Of a stretch of 15,689 nucleotides of DNA, positions 1 through 15,689 are shown piece by piece (the first letter of the stretch is position 1; every line of letters starts with the position of its first letter). Origin of the DNA: Acidobacteriota bacterium (GTDB lineage Bacteria; Acidobacteriota; UBA6911); contig JAIRVC010000036.1 of the NCBI GenBank assembly GCA_031254095.1, forward strand, positions 1-15,689, read 5' to 3'. The notes under the pieces were generated by a model that worked only from the letters and a program-made list of their open reading frames with translations, had not been told where the DNA came from and did no database searches. Made by a program: the position numbers and the translations under genes.

Positions 1-115
1 CAGGCAGGGCGTCAACAACGCCAACCAGCTCCGCTTCAGGCAGCGACGCGTACACCCTTGCGTGATGCTGCCCCAGCGCCCCGACCCCGATTACCCCCAC
101 GCGAATTTTGTCCAT
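1..115 (-). CDS. Gfo/Idh/MocA-family NAD(P)-dependent oxidoreductase, N-terminal fragment
   Basis: Only the first 38 codons are inside the window; the gene runs off the left edge. The peptide starts MDKIRVGVIGVGALGQHHAR and shows the N-terminal Rossmann beta strand and glycine-rich dinucleotide loop (GVGALG, about residues 10-15), followed by the HHARVY segment and a second strand (AELVGVVD) typical of Gfo/Idh/MocA dehydrogenases. These use NAD(P) to oxidise or reduce sugars and similar substrates in the cytoplasm; the substrate cannot be told from this piece. The ATG at 115 is preceded by an AAAGGA ribosome-binding site about six bases upstream. It is the last visible gene of the minus-strand lipid A cluster. 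A member of this family next to lpxI suggests an envelope or sugar-nucleotide role, but that is inference. Confidence 0.85.
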   Translation of the reverse strand, partial: MDKIRVGVIGVGALGQHHARVYASLPEAELVGVVDALP

Positions 116-130
116 GGCATCCTTTCTAAG

Positions 131-158
131 TGGTCAGTGATCAGTGGTCAGTGGTCAG
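131..158 (+). repeat. Left array of 7-base units (TGGTCAG-type)
   Basis: Four consecutive units read TGGTCAG, TGATCAG, TGGTCAG, TGGTCAG and are followed by TTTTTG. The array runs into the 3' end of the minus-strand gene at 141-506 and supplies its last residues (L-T-T-D-H) and stop codon. Confidence 0.9.
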
Positions 159-506
159 TTTTTGGATGAGAGATGAAAGCATTTTACCGACTTCTTCAGA
201 CAGACCCATTGCTGTATTGATATCCGCTTCTGATAGATATCCAATCTCAACACATATTAATAATTGTGTTTGCAATTCCGCTTTTGAACCTCTTGCGATT
301 GATAAAAACTTTGTAAATTCCTTTGTTGAATTTCGAGCTTGTCCCTCAGCAATATTTGAAGGAATAGATATTGCCGCTCTCCGAACTTGACTTGAAAGCC
401 CATACAATTCTTCCTTTGGCAATTTCGTGGTCAAACAATATATTTCCTTTACCAAAGACATGGCTTTCTGCCAAACAATCAACTCTCTATATTGCTGTAC
501 GCTCAT
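141..506 (-). CDS. Four-helix-bundle protein (23S rRNA intervening-sequence protein / S23 family)
   Basis: This 121-residue protein has the hallmarks of the 23S rRNA IVP family (Pfam 23S_rRNA_IVP, TIGR02436): an N-terminal YRELIVWQKAM segment, a central SIPSNIAEG motif near residues 48-56, then EFTKFLSIARGS and EL-TQL helices. The family forms pentameric four-helix bundles. Relatives are encoded in intervening sequences of 23S rRNA genes, and the Avd accessory protein of diversity-generating retroelements shares the fold. The biochemical role of stand-alone members is unknown. The start is the ATG at 506, with no strong ribosome-binding site. The C-terminal residues L-T-T-D-H and the TGA are encoded by the flanking repeat array, so gene and repeat appear to have moved or evolved as one unit. 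It interrupts the spacing of an otherwise compact lipid A operon, which argues for later insertion. Confidence 0.9.
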   Translation of the reverse strand: MSVQQYRELIVWQKAMSLVKEIYCLTTKLPKEELYGLSSQVRRAAISIPSNIAEGQARNSTKEFTKFLSIARGSKAELQTQLLICVEIGYLSEADINTAMGLSEEVGKMLSSLIQKLTTDH

Positions 507-523
507 AAATCTACTTCATTTTT

Positions 524-558
524 CTGATCACTGACAACTGACCACTGATCACTGACTA
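524..558 (-). repeat. Right array of 7-base units (CTGATCA/CTGACCA-type)
   Basis: Five units read CTGATCA, CTGACAA, CTGACCA, CTGATCA, CTGACTA, preceded by TTTTT. They are the inverted counterpart of the array at 131-158 and end directly at the lpxI stop codon. In RNA the two arrays could pair into a long stem around the enclosed gene. Confidence 0.9.
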
Positions 559-1371
559 TTAAACAGGCAGCGCGACAATGGCGATGCCGTGTTTGTCGGC
601 TTTTTGCCGGACGGCCTCCCTGTCAAAAACCAGCGTGCGGCCGGCGTCGATAACCAGCGCCGTCGCGCCGCACTCGATCATATTATCCACTGTCATGATG
701 CCTATGACCGGAATATCAAAGCGCATGTCCTGCATGGGCTTGCTGACCTTGACGATGGTCAGGTCTTTTTTGCACGCCAGCTCTCCGGCGCGCAGAATTG
801 CCGCGTCCGTTCCTTCCATCGCCTCAACCGCGACAACCGCCCGGTTGCGCACAACGATGGTCTGGCCTATGTCCATCCCCGCGATTTTACGCGCAATCGG
901 CCGCCCGTAGTCAACATCCGCCTGCTCGGATTTGTTCAGCCCCCGGCGCGTCAGCCTGCCCGGCGCGGCAAGGTGAGGCTCAATCAGCGTTGAGGAATCG
1001 AGCAGCGTGATTCCGTTTTCCTCCAGTACGCGGGCTGCGCCGCCAATGAGCGAATCGGTGTTTTTTTGCTTCAGCCCGGCCAGCATTTTAATCATGGTCC
1101 AATCCGGAATGCCGGAGCTGAATATCTGAACGTGCTTGACCTGCCCGGCCATAATAGCTTTACAGACCCCGGCCTCCCGGAAAATCCGGACGAGTTTGCC
1201 GAGTTCGCCAAGCCTCAGCCAATGAACCGGAAAACCGGCGGATTCGATTTCGGGCGCGGCTTCTTCTTTAATGGCGGCAACGACGATATCTATATTCTGC
1301 TTCCGCGCGGAATCGAGAACAAGAAAGGGGAATTGCCCGTTTCCCGCGATTACTCCGATTTTTTCGTTCAT
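559..1371 (-). CDS. lpxI: UDP-2,3-diacylglucosamine pyrophosphatase LpxI
   Basis: This 270-residue protein matches the LpxI (DUF1009) family in length and pattern. The N-terminal domain begins MNEKIGVIAGNGQFPFLVLD, and the C-terminal catalytic domain (about residue 140 on) contains GRPIARKIAGMDIGQTIVVR, AVEAMEGTDAAILRAGEL and a final FDIPVIGIMTVDNM...ALVIDAGRTLVFD stretch. LpxI hydrolyses UDP-2,3-diacylglucosamine to lipid X and UMP, the fourth step of lipid A synthesis, and replaces LpxH in lineages that lack the latter. It acts in the cytoplasm at the membrane face. It follows lpxA directly on the same strand: the gap is only 25 bases and is filled by a hairpin repeat, so co-transcription is likely. 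The ATG at 1371 fits the family start. The downstream four-helix-bundle element begins right at its stop codon. Confidence 0.93.
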   Translation of the reverse strand: MNEKIGVIAGNGQFPFLVLDSARKQNIDIVVAAIKEEAAPEIESAGFPVHWLRLGELGKLVRIFREAGVCKAIMAGQVKHVQIFSSGIPDWTMIKMLAGLKQKNTDSLIGGAARVLEENGITLLDSSTLIEPHLAAPGRLTRRGLNKSEQADVDYGRPIARKIAGMDIGQTIVVRNRAVVAVEAMEGTDAAILRAGELACKKDLTIVKVSKPMQDMRFDIPVIGIMTVDNMIECGATALVIDAGRTLVFDREAVRQKADKHGIAIVALPV

Positions 1372-2760: not shown

Positions 2761-2880
<120 letters not shown>

Positions 2881-2882
2881 AT

Positions 2883-3464
2883 TTACGGTTTTTTCGCGGC
2901 GGGCGGGATGGTCGGAACGCCGGCCGGATAAGCCTGATTATATGCCTTGATTACATCTTCCGTCACATTCAGCGCGGGATTGATCCAGGCGTCACGCTGC
3001 GGATTAAGGAGCAGGATGGCGTCAAGACCTTTTTCAAGGGCAACCTTTTCAATGATCGGCCCTATTTTTGCGGAAATGTTATTAATCAGCCGCTGACGCC
3101 GGGCGGTGATGTCTCTCTGCGTGTCTTCCTGAAATCTTTGCAGCTTGAGTTCCTGTGAACTCGCTTTTTCATCAAGATCCATAAGGGCTTCGTCGGTCAG
3201 CTTTGCAGCCTGTACTTCCAGTCTGTTGCGCAGCTCTTCAAATTCCCGCCTCATAGCGTCAAGCTCCGCGTTTTTCGCGTCAACGAATTTCTGCATGTCG
3301 GCCATTATTCTGGCGCCTTCGTCACAGGTTTGAATGACCTGATCGGCGTCTAACCATCCTATTTTAACCGTTGGCGCGTGGACTGCGGTCGCCGCCGTCT
3401 GGGCAACGCCGGCAGCCGGCAACGTCAGGGCGACGATAAAAACAGCCAGTAAAAATCGATTCAT
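2883..3464 (-). CDS. OmpH/Skp-family periplasmic chaperone
   Basis: This 193-residue protein has an N-terminal signal peptide (MNRFLLAVFIVALTLPAAGVA, cleavage near residue 21) and a long charged helical region at about residues 50-125, rich in heptad-like Leu, Glu, Lys and Gln, as in the coiled-coil tentacles of Skp. The KIGWLDADQVIQTCDEG segment and the C-terminal VALEKGLDAILLLNP...DVTEDVIKAYN pattern match the OmpH family. Skp-type proteins hold unfolded outer-membrane proteins in the periplasm on their way to BamA, encoded immediately upstream in the same direction. An AAGGAG site lies ten bases before the ATG at 3464. An aromatic-poor, Pro-rich tail (TIPPAAKKP) ends the protein. Confidence 0.9.
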   Translation of the reverse strand: MNRFLLAVFIVALTLPAAGVAQTAATAVHAPTVKIGWLDADQVIQTCDEGARIMADMQKFVDAKNAELDAMRREFEELRNRLEVQAAKLTDEALMDLDEKASSQELKLQRFQEDTQRDITARRQRLINNISAKIGPIIEKVALEKGLDAILLLNPQRDAWINPALNVTEDVIKAYNQAYPAGVPTIPPAAKKP

Positions 3465-6475: not shown

Positions 6476-6504
6476 TTGACATTTATCAATTTACATATTA
6501 CAAA
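6476..6504 (+). promoter_or_regulatory. Promoter of the toxin-antitoxin operon
   Basis: A consensus -35 box TTGACA lies at 6476-6481. With a 17-base spacer the -10 box is TACAAA (6499-6504, four of six matches). The predicted start of transcription is near 6511, only a base or a few before the antitoxin ATG codons at 6512 and 6515, so the mRNA would be leaderless. No ribosome-binding site is seen before these ATGs, which agrees. Confidence 0.6.
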
Positions 6505-6514
6505 TTGTAATATG
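6494..6514. promoter_or_regulatory. Palindromic operator over the -10 box and start codon
   Basis: CATATTACAA (6494-6503) and TTGTAATATG (6505-6514) are perfect inverted arms around a single central A. The site covers the predicted -10 box and the first ATG of the antitoxin. Ribbon-helix-helix antitoxins commonly bind such palindromes to repress their own operon, so this is a good autoregulation site. Confidence 0.65.
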
Positions 6515-6787
6515 ATGACAATTTTAAGCGATAAAATAACTACCGCGAGGCTTCCTGTTGATACCAGGAATAAACTTCTCGCTCTCTCCAAAATTAAAAA
6601 AAAGACAAAATCCGATATCATTATAGAATCGCTGGAAATGTACTATACGCAGGAAGAGAACGAGATAGATTCCTTCAGTCTTGGCGAAGGCTTTTTCGGC
6701 AAATACGGGTCGGGTGAAAACGACCGGGCAACTACATATAAAAAACGAATAAAAGAGAAACTTTCAGGCAGGATGGCGGCTTGCTGA
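6512..6787 (+). CDS. Ribbon-helix-helix (CopG-like) antitoxin of a VapBC-type pair
   Basis: This 91-residue protein (starting MMTILSDKITTARLP) shows the ribbon-helix-helix pattern: a short beta strand (ITTARLP, about residues 9-15), helix A (DTRNKLLALSKIKKKT) and helix B (KSDIIIESLEMYY). The C-terminal half (from about residue 45) is charged and includes a basic KKRIKEKL stretch, as expected of a tail that wraps the toxin. The N-terminal domain would dimerise and bind DNA, probably the palindrome over its own start. The ATG at 6512 or 6515 is preferred to upstream starts because the promoter ends there and the family begins shortly before the strand. Its stop overlaps the toxin start by seven bases, indicating translational coupling. 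AT-rich base use differs from nearby genes and suggests acquisition by transfer. Confidence 0.8.
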   Translation: MMTILSDKITTARLPVDTRNKLLALSKIKKKTKSDIIIESLEMYYTQEENEIDSFSLGEGFFGKYGSGENDRATTYKKRIKEKLSGRMAAC

Positions 6788-7197
6788 ACTCAATACTCAT
6801 TGATGCGGGCCCCTTGATTGCCCTTTTTGATTCAAGCGAAAAGAACCACCGGAAAATACTGGCTTTCCTCAAGGCGCATCCGTACAGGTATGTAAGCACC
6901 ATAGCGGTGTTTACCGAAGTTTCCCATTTGCTGGATTTCAGCACTGACGCACAGCGGGATTTTTATGAGTGGGTTATGTGCAAGGGCGTAATTATCGGCG
7001 ATATAAATCAAAATGACATGCCGCGCATTGTGGAACTGACGGGCAAGTACGCAGATATACCCATGGATTTTGCCGATGCCACGCTGGTAATCACGGCGGA
7101 GAAAACCGGCATCAGGGAGATCATTAGCCTTGATAAAGATTTTGATATTTACCGGCTTCCCGGCAAGGAGCTGATTCGCAATATCTACAGACCGTAA
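6781..7197 (+). CDS. PIN-domain ribonuclease toxin (VapC-like)
   Basis: This 138-residue protein is a single PIN domain. The acidic metal-binding residues are visible: Asp8 in LIDAGPLIALFD, Glu46 in VFTEVSHLL, Asp99 in DFADATLV (with Asp96 close by) and Asp118 in SLDKDFDIYR. VapC toxins cleave specific tRNA or rRNA sites and stop growth unless the antitoxin occupies the active site. The start is a TTG at 6781 that overlaps the end of the antitoxin gene; an AGGATGG stretch upstream may serve as ribosome-binding site. All catalytic residues are intact, so the toxin is probably active. It is convergent with the FN3 lipoprotein gene, and a palindromic element lies between them. The target RNA cannot be predicted from sequence. 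Confidence 0.88.
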   Translation: MLNSILIDAGPLIALFDSSEKNHRKILAFLKAHPYRYVSTIAVFTEVSHLLDFSTDAQRDFYEWVMCKGVIIGDINQNDMPRIVELTGKYADIPMDFADATLVITAEKTGIREIISLDKDFDIYRLPGKELIRNIYRP

Positions 7198-10498: not shown

Positions 10499-10518
10499 AT
10501 AAAGAGGTGAGCCGCGTG

Positions 10519-10609
10519 AACCGCCTTACGGCGGTTAGTGGTTAGTGGCCCGTGGCCAGTGGTCATTGTTCAGAAAAATTCGCCGTGAACCATCTTTGAG
10601 AGTAACTTC
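10519..10609 (+). repeat. Half-copy of the 7-mer element upstream of hslV, with hairpin
   Basis: It begins with a perfect hairpin AACCGCCTTACGGCGGTT (10519-10536), continues with units TTAGTGG, TTAGTGG, CCCGTGG, CCAGTGG and TCATTGT, and then TCAGAAAAA and the GCCGTGAACCATCTTT block that is also found at 9859-9919 in inverted orientation. It sits between the divergent hslV and flavodoxin genes, upstream of both promoters, and has no coding capacity. Confidence 0.75.
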
Positions 10610-10700
10610 ATGGAATAGAAGTTTTAGGCGAGGACGACGGCAGTCCCGCATCAAAGATTTCTATGACTTTTACGGAGCGCGCCCGTCCGTAAGATTTTGC

Positions 10701-14388: not shown

Positions 14389-15138
14389 ATGTTTGAAGAA
14401 CTTGATACTCTTTACAGTAAACTGAAAAGCATAAGGCCGTTATCTCCCGAAAGCGTCAGGCGGCTGTCCGATGACTTTATGATAGATTACACCTATCACT
14501 CAAACGCGATTGAGGGCAGTACTCTCACGCTTGAAGAAACCGCCCTTGTGCTGAAAGAGGGCGTAACAATCGGCGGGAAACCGCTGCGGCACCATCTGGA
14601 AGCGATCGGACACAGGGACGCCTACTGCTATGTTGAGGATCTGGTAAGAAACAAAATCCCTGTTTCCGAACGGGTCATAAAGGATATACATTCTCTCGTC
14701 TTGATGGACAGGCGGACGGATAAGGGCGTGTATAGAAGCGTACCCGTCAGGGTCGGCGGCTTTCATCCCTGCCAGCCTTACGAAGTGCCTGTACAGATGG
14801 AGCGGTTGAAGCTTGATTACGATGGGGAAATGCAAAATCTGCACGTTGTCGAGAGGGCTGCGGTTTTTCATTTGAGGTTTGAAACGATACATCCATTTAT
14901 CGACGGCAACGGGCGCGTGGGAAGGCTGCTCTTAAATCTTGAATTGATGAAAGAGGGTTACCCGCCTGTCAATATCAAATTTTCGGACAGGACAAAGTAT
15001 TACGACTGCTTTAACCATTACCGCGAAAATGACAACGACGCTTCAAAAATGACCGGGCTTATCGCGGGATACGCGATTGATGAGCTTAAACGGTACATTG
15101 AAATCGCGGAACAGTCCGATAATCTCAGGAAACGCTGA
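14389..15138 (+). CDS. Fic-domain AMP transferase with N-terminal inhibitory helix (class II)
   Basis: This 249-residue protein has the complete catalytic Fic motif HPFIDGNGRVGR (168-179), with catalytic His168 and the phosphate-binding GNGR. The N-terminal motif S38-N-A-I-E42-G43 fits the (S/T)xxxE(G/N) inhibitory helix, whose Glu blocks productive ATP binding; this places it in class II, where the enzyme is self-inhibited. GVYRSVPVRVGG (113-124) contributes the flap that holds the target. Such enzymes usually AMPylate a Ser, Thr or Tyr of a protein and may also reverse it. A C-terminal helical tail (about 220-249) lacks a clear winged-helix domain. The ATG at 14389 has an AAAGGGAAGG site. 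It lies 30 bases after the cotransporter gene and just before an integrase, so it may belong to the accessory region. No separate antitoxin gene is needed or seen. Confidence 0.92.
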   Translation: MFEELDTLYSKLKSIRPLSPESVRRLSDDFMIDYTYHSNAIEGSTLTLEETALVLKEGVTIGGKPLRHHLEAIGHRDAYCYVEDLVRNKIPVSERVIKDIHSLVLMDRRTDKGVYRSVPVRVGGFHPCQPYEVPVQMERLKLDYDGEMQNLHVVERAAVFHLRFETIHPFIDGNGRVGRLLLNLELMKEGYPPVNIKFSDRTKYYDCFNHYRENDNDASKMTGLIAGYAIDELKRYIEIAEQSDNLRKR

Positions 15139-15304: not shown

Positions 15305-15689
15305 ATGCCTAAAAAAGCTAAAGAACTATCAGCCCTCACAGTTTCAAAAATCAAATCCGAAGGTCGTTACGCCGTAGGCGGCGTTGACGGCCTTCATTTT
15401 TGCGTCGTCGGCAATTCCCGTTCATGGGTTCTGCGAATCGCTGTCGGAACACGGACGAACGGCAAAGGTGAAACCGTCACCCGCCGCCGCGACATGGGAT
15501 TAGGAAGCTATCCTGAAGTATCCCTTGCCGAAGCCCGCGACAGAGCGCGTGAGATGCGCAGTCAGATCAGAAACGGCATTGACCCGCTTGAACAGAAACA
15601 GCGTAGCAAAGAAGCCCTGCGCATACAACAGCGGCAATTGAAAACTTTCCGCGAGTGCGCCGAAGTCGTTATTGAAAACAAAGCACGTG
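15305..15689 (+). CDS. Tyrosine-type (P4-like) integrase, N-terminal part
   Basis: The frame opens with ATG at 15305 (GGAG ten bases upstream) and runs 128 codons to the window edge without a stop. MPKKAKELSALTVSKIKSEG then GRYAVGGVDGLHFCVVGNSR match the arm-binding domain (DUF4102 type) that starts P4-like integrases: the pattern of xGLxxxV followed by SRSWVLRIAVGTR and RRRDMGLGSYPEVSLAEARDRA is diagnostic. The core-binding domain begins at about residue 115 (TFRECAEVVIENKAR), and the catalytic domain lies outside the window. Such enzymes insert genomic islands, ICEs or prophages at a chromosomal att site, often a tRNA gene. It shows that mobile DNA begins here or nearby. Whether the fic gene lies inside the island is unclear. 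Confidence 0.92.
   Translation, partial: MPKKAKELSALTVSKIKSEGRYAVGGVDGLHFCVVGNSRSWVLRIAVGTRTNGKGETVTRRRDMGLGSYPEVSLAEARDRAREMRSQIRNGIDPLEQKQRSKEALRIQQRQLKTFRECAEVVIENKAR

Follow-up and report, generated by a model that had tools for sequence, protein, structure and literature searches.

Genes of the 23S rRNA intervening-sequence protein (IVP) family are flanked by matching inverted arms, most of them arrays of tandem heptamers, and this hairpin-armed architecture is real and general. The units so defined probably form a selfish, hairpin-based mobile family distributed across bacteria, with autonomous and non-autonomous forms, of which the unit described here would be an autonomous member. This unit lies in a 15,689-nt stretch of an Acidobacteriota genome (the window; its genome is labelled G000, and other G, C and L numbers denote genomes, contigs and loci). 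The mobility of these elements is well supported by sequence comparison; the movement itself and the enzyme behind it we infer. The first-pass annotation had taken the window unit for a mobile element, and turnover at junctions, arms at other loci and deletion derivatives all argue in favor of that proposal.

The element occupies positions 129–556 of the window as a single unit, filling the gap from the stop codon of lpxI to the start of an oxidoreductase gene. Its upstream neighbor is lpxI (559–1371, minus strand), and downstream lies the 5′ part of a Gfo/Idh-type oxidoreductase gene (1–115, minus strand), named by eye from its translated start. The IVP gene (141–506, minus strand) encodes 121 amino acids. 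In gene orientation, the 5′ arm (524–556, minus strand) consists of 4.7 tandem heptamers of the AGTGGTC/AGTGATC type and the 3′ arm (129–159, minus strand) of 4.4 tandem heptamers reading ACTGACC; repeat detection on the window reports them as CTGACCA (4.7 copies at 524–556) and AGTGGTC (4.4 copies at 129–159). Positions 133–159 and 530–556 are 96% complementary over 27 nt (26/27), in line with the 26 of 28 matching positions that had been claimed for the inverted arms. The gene had also been placed exactly between the arrays. The family assignment and the arrays hold, but the gene overlaps the 3′ arm, because its final codons and stop, CTG ACC ACT GAC CAC TGA, are array sequence, as the same annotation had itself pointed out. 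Its placement of the unit against the lpxI stop and before the oxidoreductase gene is borne out: 2 nt separate the 5′ arm from the stop codon at 559, and 13 nt separate the 3′ arm from the oxidoreductase start codon at 113–115. The predicted RNA fold of positions 120–575 (minus strand) has an energy of −126.4 kcal/mol, compared with −104.8 (sd 5.0) for shuffled sequences (z −4.3), and both arms form its outer stem. An Rfam search of the window gave no match.

In profile searches, the window protein matches PF05635 (23S_rRNA_IVP) with 142.7 bits (cut-off 33.8, E 5.8e-42) and TIGR02436 with an E-value of 3.7e-39. Its predicted structure comprises four helices with a mean pLDDT of 94.5. A structure search with this model returns Xcc0516 first (PDB 2gsc; 44–46% identity), followed by BT_0352 (2rld; 25–26%), both from the same family and both titled as proteins of unknown function, and then by Avd of diversity-generating retroelements (DGRs), alone (4dwl) and in the DGR ribonucleoprotein (8ube, 8ub7), with TM-scores of 0.76–0.79. 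The kinship with Avd that had been suggested from the sequence is therefore confirmed at the level of the fold (4dwl, 8ube). The sequence match is weak, with 36.3 bits against the bAvd profile (cut-off 40) and 34.6 bits against NF033474 (cut-off 80), both below threshold. IVPs are small helical bundles for which we know of no catalytic activity. The resemblance of PF05635 to Avd has already been published (passage of PMC10053308), and an excerpt of PMC4990558 describes the Xcc0516 oligomer as a pentamer and gives the function of IVP/S23 proteins as unknown.

A PF05635 match is present in 104 of 199 relatives, in 99 of them above the family cut-off. For the analysis of flanks, the 300 nt upstream of each IVP gene were aligned with the reverse complement of the 300 nt downstream, and arms were called at a score of at least 12. 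The same-phylum set comprised 90 loci (the window, 29 others and 60 more) from the best-scoring part of the PF05635 match list, with two loci containing an internal stop and G069:C223:5714 omitted; a second G000 element, on contig C29 (L062), was dropped on account of its short flank. Matching inverted arms are found at 82 of these 90 loci, compared with 2.9 expected from pairing with other loci; at a score of at least 16 the figures are 75 and 0.8. In direct orientation the same comparison yields 10/90 and 5/90. Arrays with a lag of 7 occur upstream of 49 and downstream of 42 of the 90 loci, and in control windows 700 nt away at 3/87 and 2/86. The second commonest lag is 8 (8 and 11 of 90 loci), and other lags are mostly near zero except for multiples.

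The architecture extends beyond the phylum. Among the best 80 of 586 loci found in named genomes (Clostridia, Bacteroidota, Planctomycetes, Acidobacteria, Xanthomonas, Rhizobium, candidate phyla and others), 79 had enough flank and 64 of these have arms (3.0 expected; control windows 2/68). Viral contigs contributed 39 IVP loci, 38 with enough flank and 31 with arms (2.0 expected). Six plasmid loci were examined out of 30 plasmid records with a match: two from Calothrix, one from Nostoc and one from Riemerella have arms (scores 17–31), and two from Trichormus have none (score 10). No arms were found at 8/90 same-phylum, 15/79 named-genome and 7/38 viral-contig loci. Such arms are rare around control genes, at 1/27 for lpxI and 18/378 for the ORFs of an array-rich genome. 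Other IVP genes thus bear borders of the kind seen in the window. Since the arms match at 82 of 90 loci, chance is excluded as their origin, a conclusion also reached from the test of own arms against those of other loci, the control windows, the control genes and the reversed patterns.

Several viral contigs with IVP loci (L285–L296) have partly homologous flanks, and one, L287, has a very long array (lag-7 score 196). A phage origin of the window element was rejected, as its protein has no match in 50,697 phage records, though the 39 viral-contig loci exist.

The repeat unit is private to each element. We analyzed 161 elements with arms scoring at least 14, whose 5′ arms fit best to a period of 7 in 122 cases, 8 in 18, 9 in 6 and 6 in one, the other 14 having none; G exceeds C in the 5′ arm of 147 of the 161. 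The two arms of one element match each other, and units differ among elements, even inside one genome. The elements of G148 have the units AGTGGTC, GGTTTTG, GGTTATC, AGTCGTC, AGTTGTT, AGCTCTC and GTCGATG, and those of G095 (nine IVP matches, L323 and the fragment L324 being left out of scoring) include AGGACTG, GGGTCTA, GAGTCTTGG and GGGTGACA. Similar IVP proteins often carry different arms, and protein similarity correlates weakly with arm similarity (Mantel r 0.19, p 0.0005; 126 elements without homologous flanks), on which ground strict co-evolution of protein and unit was rejected. In 40 of 47 elements, the order of variant units agrees between the two arms better than the mean of permutations, with p ≤ 0.1 in 14 of 47, so that copying of whole arms with the unit order kept is supported in part only.

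Orientation, spacing and junction ORFs were called mechanically rather than by a gene finder, and the two callers that we used differ somewhat in their orientation counts. The elements have a median length of 482 nt (n = 136). From the upstream sense stop codon to the 5′ arm the median distance is 4 nt (within 20 nt in 80 of 107 cases), and from the 3′ arm to the next ATG it is 13 nt (80 cases). Where both neighbors are co-directional, the IVP gene is in the sense orientation at 47 of 50 loci in relatives (47:3) and 51 of 56 in named genomes (51:5); when the other ORF caller is used and loci with homologous flanks are counted once per group, the figures are 40/46 and 40/43. This stop-to-start placement and sense excess suggest that the elements of cellular genomes lie mostly within transcripts, between genes and in reading direction, as expected if the element passes through RNA or needs read-through from the upstream gene. 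In viral contigs the IVP gene is mostly antisense (sense to antisense 5:19, p 0.007; 4:9 after grouping by homologous flanks).

The contents of one junction change among relatives. Retention of the gene at the lpxI junction in relatives had been named beforehand as evidence against an element; hmmsearch found no IVP there in any of 14 same-family lpxI loci (G009 extending only 150 nt past lpxI). At nine of the 14 junctions there is no heptamer array (lag-7 score ≤ 3, hairpin score ≤ 8); three (G001, G008, G011) bear inverted heptamer arrays that enclose no gene and have units other than those of the window; the array of G007 is weak (score 11), and the 150 nt of G009 contain none. On C29, the second G000 contig with an lpxI–oxidoreductase junction, the site holds another IVP element, with a protein 57% identical and an AGTGGCT-like unit. 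On the oxidoreductase side, the two contigs show two differences in the first 118 nt, which extend to the arm; on the lpxI side, about 23 nt were compared and several differences were seen. The C29 element may represent strain variation within the bin, or else a second copy.

Three further junctions show such exchange. Between rpsG and fusA, G193 has an IVP element and G172 a gene-less hairpin with another unit, an GCAGAGAC-like 8-mer, with flanks 97–98% identical; seven further relatives have other sequences there, six of which fold strongly. The rpsG–fusA hairpins of G172 and G072 (L381, L376) are both built of 8-mers of the GCAGAGAC / ACACAGAG type, a repeat type that may be widespread among environmental genomes. 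Between pdhA and pdhB, the IVP element of G172 lies between TAA and TTATGG, and the empty junction of G141 reads TAATTATGG. No target-site duplication is seen in this comparison, which is between different species and concerns the sole junction with an empty relative. The same junction in G193, G165 and G072 (L382, L357, L384) has other small genes without clear arms, toxin–antitoxin or nucleotidyltransferase-like by eye. At a tdh–kbl-like junction (named by eye), L100 and L102 share an element and L156 has another, within flanks 96–98% identical; the IVPs of L100/L102 and L156 are 56% identical and their arms are unlike. The divergence between L102 and L156 extends about 50 nt into the next gene, and the swapped elements could have come in as divergent alleles through recombination.

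In four swapped pairs, window and C29 among them, synonymous sites are saturated (pS 0.74–0.89) beside flanks 92–98% identical. Seven vertical pairs, elements staying at one site, have dN/dS values of 0.04–0.16, indicating strong purifying selection on the IVP. Fast protein evolution was rejected as the source of the swaps on these two sets of values. In Flavobacterium, some elements (L205, L207, L231, L241 and L218) remain at one site across species, which fits long residence.

Gene-less copies accompany the elements. Matches to the ACTGACC type (at most 3 mismatches, overlapping) number 220 in G000, compared with 4 for the reversed pattern, and the genome has two IVP genes. We searched for two-unit patterns of three units in 30 genomes, ten of them without an IVP match. 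For each of the three, genomes with a cognate IVP gene have two-unit copies at a distance from it. GGTTATC is found 20 times in G148, where that element resides, and 4 times in the other 29 genomes. AGTGGTC is found 15, 22 and 14 times in G000, G172 and G148, each with an element of this type, and 1 to 11 times in eight further genomes, one of them with 5 matches in the reversed control; its matches in G060, G084, G179 and G193 are uninformative because the IVP units of these genomes are not all known. AGGACTG is found 2,046 times in G095, which holds the element (reversed control 0), and 4 times elsewhere. G045 also holds an AGGACTG element and has 22 matches versus 17 in the reversed control, and it was not counted as a second case. 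None of the three patterns occurs in the ten IVP-less genomes.

Gene-less hairpins of G000 have inner edges like those of the IVP element (by eye). Two of them retain the start of an IVP gene: the C44 hairpin (arm score 13; 79% over query positions 1–94, E 1.3e-15) and the C184 hairpin (arm score 21; 84% over 1–44, E 4.9e-5). By sequence similarity, they are identified as internal-deletion derivatives of an IVP element, as MITEs are of transposons. Three other G000 hairpin loops tested contain no IVP gene remnant.

The window contains a gene-less hairpin and a single array that are additions to the earlier account of it. The hairpin (2762–2878, minus strand) has arrays at 2762–2806 and 2839–2878 around a loop of about 33 nt, with inner edges resembling those of the IVP element, and fills the junction of an OmpH/Skp-like ORF (2883–3464, named by eye) and fabZ (2330–2758, identified by profile search). 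The single heptamer array (10533–10562, no strand assigned) apparently lies within a longer dispersed repeat of G000 (by eye). This repeat, of about 120 nt (window about 10508–10630; also L032, L040, L046, L050, L056 and L057), has a body with a TAACTTCAT..GAAGTTA hairpin and GATGGTTCACGGCGG, and adjoins a GCCG..GGCGGC hairpin and a single heptamer array. Among nine different contexts listed for an exact 28-nt array in G000, about six include the body of the 120-nt repeat (by eye). This repeat may represent another type of satellite that bears heptamers. Elsewhere, the window has an inverted repeat without heptamers beside the lpxA start and the fabZ stop (2177–2329; score 18, CCGGATATTTCATGAGGATTC), a PIN-domain gene (PF01850) preceded by a small gene in a toxin–antitoxin-like arrangement (6476–7197 for the two), a Fic/DOC-domain gene found by profile search (14389–15138), and the start of an ORF resembling a phage-type integrase by eye (15305–15688).

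Among known systems, the 23S rRNA intervening sequence (IVS) of Coxiella burnetii is close in plan. As described in an excerpt of PMC4990558, it has 428 nt, an S23p/IVP ORF and a 28-bp terminal stem, with tandem GACAGAT heptamers ahead of the start codon whose number varies among strains and at the first of which RNase III cleaves. The window element has an ORF of the same family, about the same size, a terminal stem and heptamers, which strengthens the common plan that the first-pass annotation had recognized. The Coxiella IVS lies in a 23S rRNA helix, whereas the window element lies between protein genes; with an ORF and a long stem but no 23S location, we regard it as IVS-like and do not class it as an rRNA IVS. 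The authors of that paper recall ideas that rRNA inserts are remnants of transposition or formerly mobile. In our survey, none of the 80 IVP loci searched matched an rRNA family in Rfam, so rRNA inserts look like a special case of IVP elements.

Insertion sequences and MITEs offer a parallel in the internal-deletion derivatives on C44 and C184, but the window arms enclose the IVP gene alone, with no transposase. An ordinary insertion sequence and an rRNA IVS were therefore both rejected, for lack of a transposase and of a location within 23S rRNA. DGRs share the Avd fold, but reverse transcriptase and template and variable repeats are absent within the window unit of about 430 nt, and the Avd profiles score below their cut-offs. 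A passage of PMC3936711 reports 18 IVP genes at cas loci and does not mention arms.

Heptamer repeats have been described on their own. GGGNATC repeats of Xanthomonas and Nostoc form 70 and 75 inverted pairs in two Xanthomonas genomes (passages of PMC4692102), and no spreading mechanism is evident for the TAACTGA repeats of Beggiatoaceae (passages of PMC4679880). Like the arms of IVP elements, both are heptamer arrays, mostly intergenic and near stop or start codons, as excerpted from these papers. Both the published GGGAATC and the unit of the IVP locus L237, GGGGACC, recur genome-wide in X. codiaei. The terms 'S23', 'intervening sequence' and 'four helix' are absent from the texts of PMC4692102 and PMC4679880, and neither the architecture nor a link of IVP genes to heptamer hairpins was found described in the open-licence PMC papers searched.

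As to how such elements could move, the IVP oligomer, a pentamer in Xcc0516 (excerpt of PMC4990558) and with the fold of Avd, which is part of the DGR ribonucleoprotein, would bind the arm hairpin of its own element in a read-through transcript. RNase III-type cutting could then free the hairpin RNA or render the hairpin harmless inside operons. A host enzyme would copy the hairpin in trans into a new junction, reverse transcriptase or the replication machinery being the simplest candidates, and the intervening sequences of rRNA would be family members inserted into rRNA helices. Within the mobile-family reading, such an RNA route is quite possible, if short of probable.

Among the close analogs are REPINs, inverted doublets that form hairpins and are tied to one gene type (passages of PMC3116915), and the best reading is that of a REPIN/RAYT-like family whose only protein is an Avd-like bundle. 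Both systems comprise extragenic inverted doublets that act as hairpins, one cognate gene type, and gene-bearing and gene-less forms, but RAYT is a tyrosine (HUH) transposase and the sole gene of the element is an IVP. Dispersed inverted hairpin doublets are present in G095, where 574 kb contain 86 arrays that form 28 inverted pairs of a single polarity with short loops (37–103 nt), and no pair of opposite polarity within 300 nt. We know of no REP ends made of tandem heptamers. Of the 28 hairpin loops, 24 resemble none of the rest and four form two matching pairs (one over 96 nt, the other over only 15 nt), so most hairpins are not simple recent copies. It is conceivable, if somewhat unlikely, that the hairpin moves as single-stranded DNA, cut in trans by a host HUH or other recombinase, with the IVP as a specificity factor only. 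The REPIN precedent, the constant polarity and short loops in G095 and the missing target duplication at pdhA–pdhB would suit such a DNA route, but a symmetric DNA hairpin gives no reason to expect sense bias and stop-to-start placement, unless selection alone is responsible, and the element has no HUH gene.

Distinctly less likely is a role in host regulation in which nothing moves, the IVP being an RNA-binding regulator, the heptamer hairpins its sites at operon junctions (for processing, stability or attenuation) and its own arms a means of autoregulation. Purifying selection on the IVP is consistent with this, as is the position of the G095 hairpins at gene 3′ ends: arms scoring at least 16, ordinary terminators included, are found at 44/152 tandem and 22/47 convergent junctions and are rarer at divergent promoters (4/35). 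The rpsG–fusA junction folds strongly in 7 of 8 relatives without an IVP there (by comparison with shuffles that keep base composition only), and the Xanthomonas and Nostoc repeats, which are transcribed, are found close to start and stop codons (passages of PMC4692102). However, one genome may hold several IVP genes with unrelated units, the unit changes completely between close relatives, and the distribution is patchy (104/199 genomes); the deletion derivatives, swapped elements and array-free junctions look like element biology. Improbable, finally, is a spread of intergenic heptamer arrays by slippage or an unknown process with IVP genes merely settling among them, since, although gene-less arrays far outnumber IVP genes in G000, other ORFs of an array-rich genome seldom have inverted arms, the arms flank the IVP in one polarity with a gene-specific unit, and the three tested units are absent from ten IVP-less genomes.

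For a mobile family speak the arms, the different units within one genome, the dispersal of units, the deletion derivatives, junction turnover, the swaps, the sense bias, the short distance from upstream stop to 5′ arm, the low dN/dS of vertical pairs and the Avd fold. Against it count that no movement or enzyme was seen and no target duplication at pdhA–pdhB, along with the mostly unrelated loops of G095, the same-site elements of Flavobacterium, the weak Mantel correlation, the IVP loci without arms, the agreement of unit order in 14 of 47 elements, the antisense excess in viral contigs, the possible origin of swaps by recombination and the 17 control matches in G045.

A bolder and tentative proposal is that these units represent a new class of element: a heptamer hairpin borne on a transcript, carrying or borrowing one non-enzymatic, Avd-like ring protein, copied through RNA in trans, inserted in sense from stop to start, and with a private unit that changes fast. 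If so, rRNA intervening sequences and the scattered heptamer repeats of bacteria would be one system. The link between protein and hairpin joins two puzzles, the commonness of IVP/S23 genes (104 of 199 relatives) and the heptamer repeats of Xanthomonas, Nostoc and Beggiatoaceae, which have no known means of spreading. If it is true, the intervening sequences would mark rRNA as one special insertion site of an element that is widespread, and the function of PF05635 would become testable, with the own heptamer hairpin as the candidate binding target. Avd of DGRs would gain relatives that serve a simpler hairpin element, and bacterial genomes would harbor a second REPIN-like lifestyle, one without a transposase gene.
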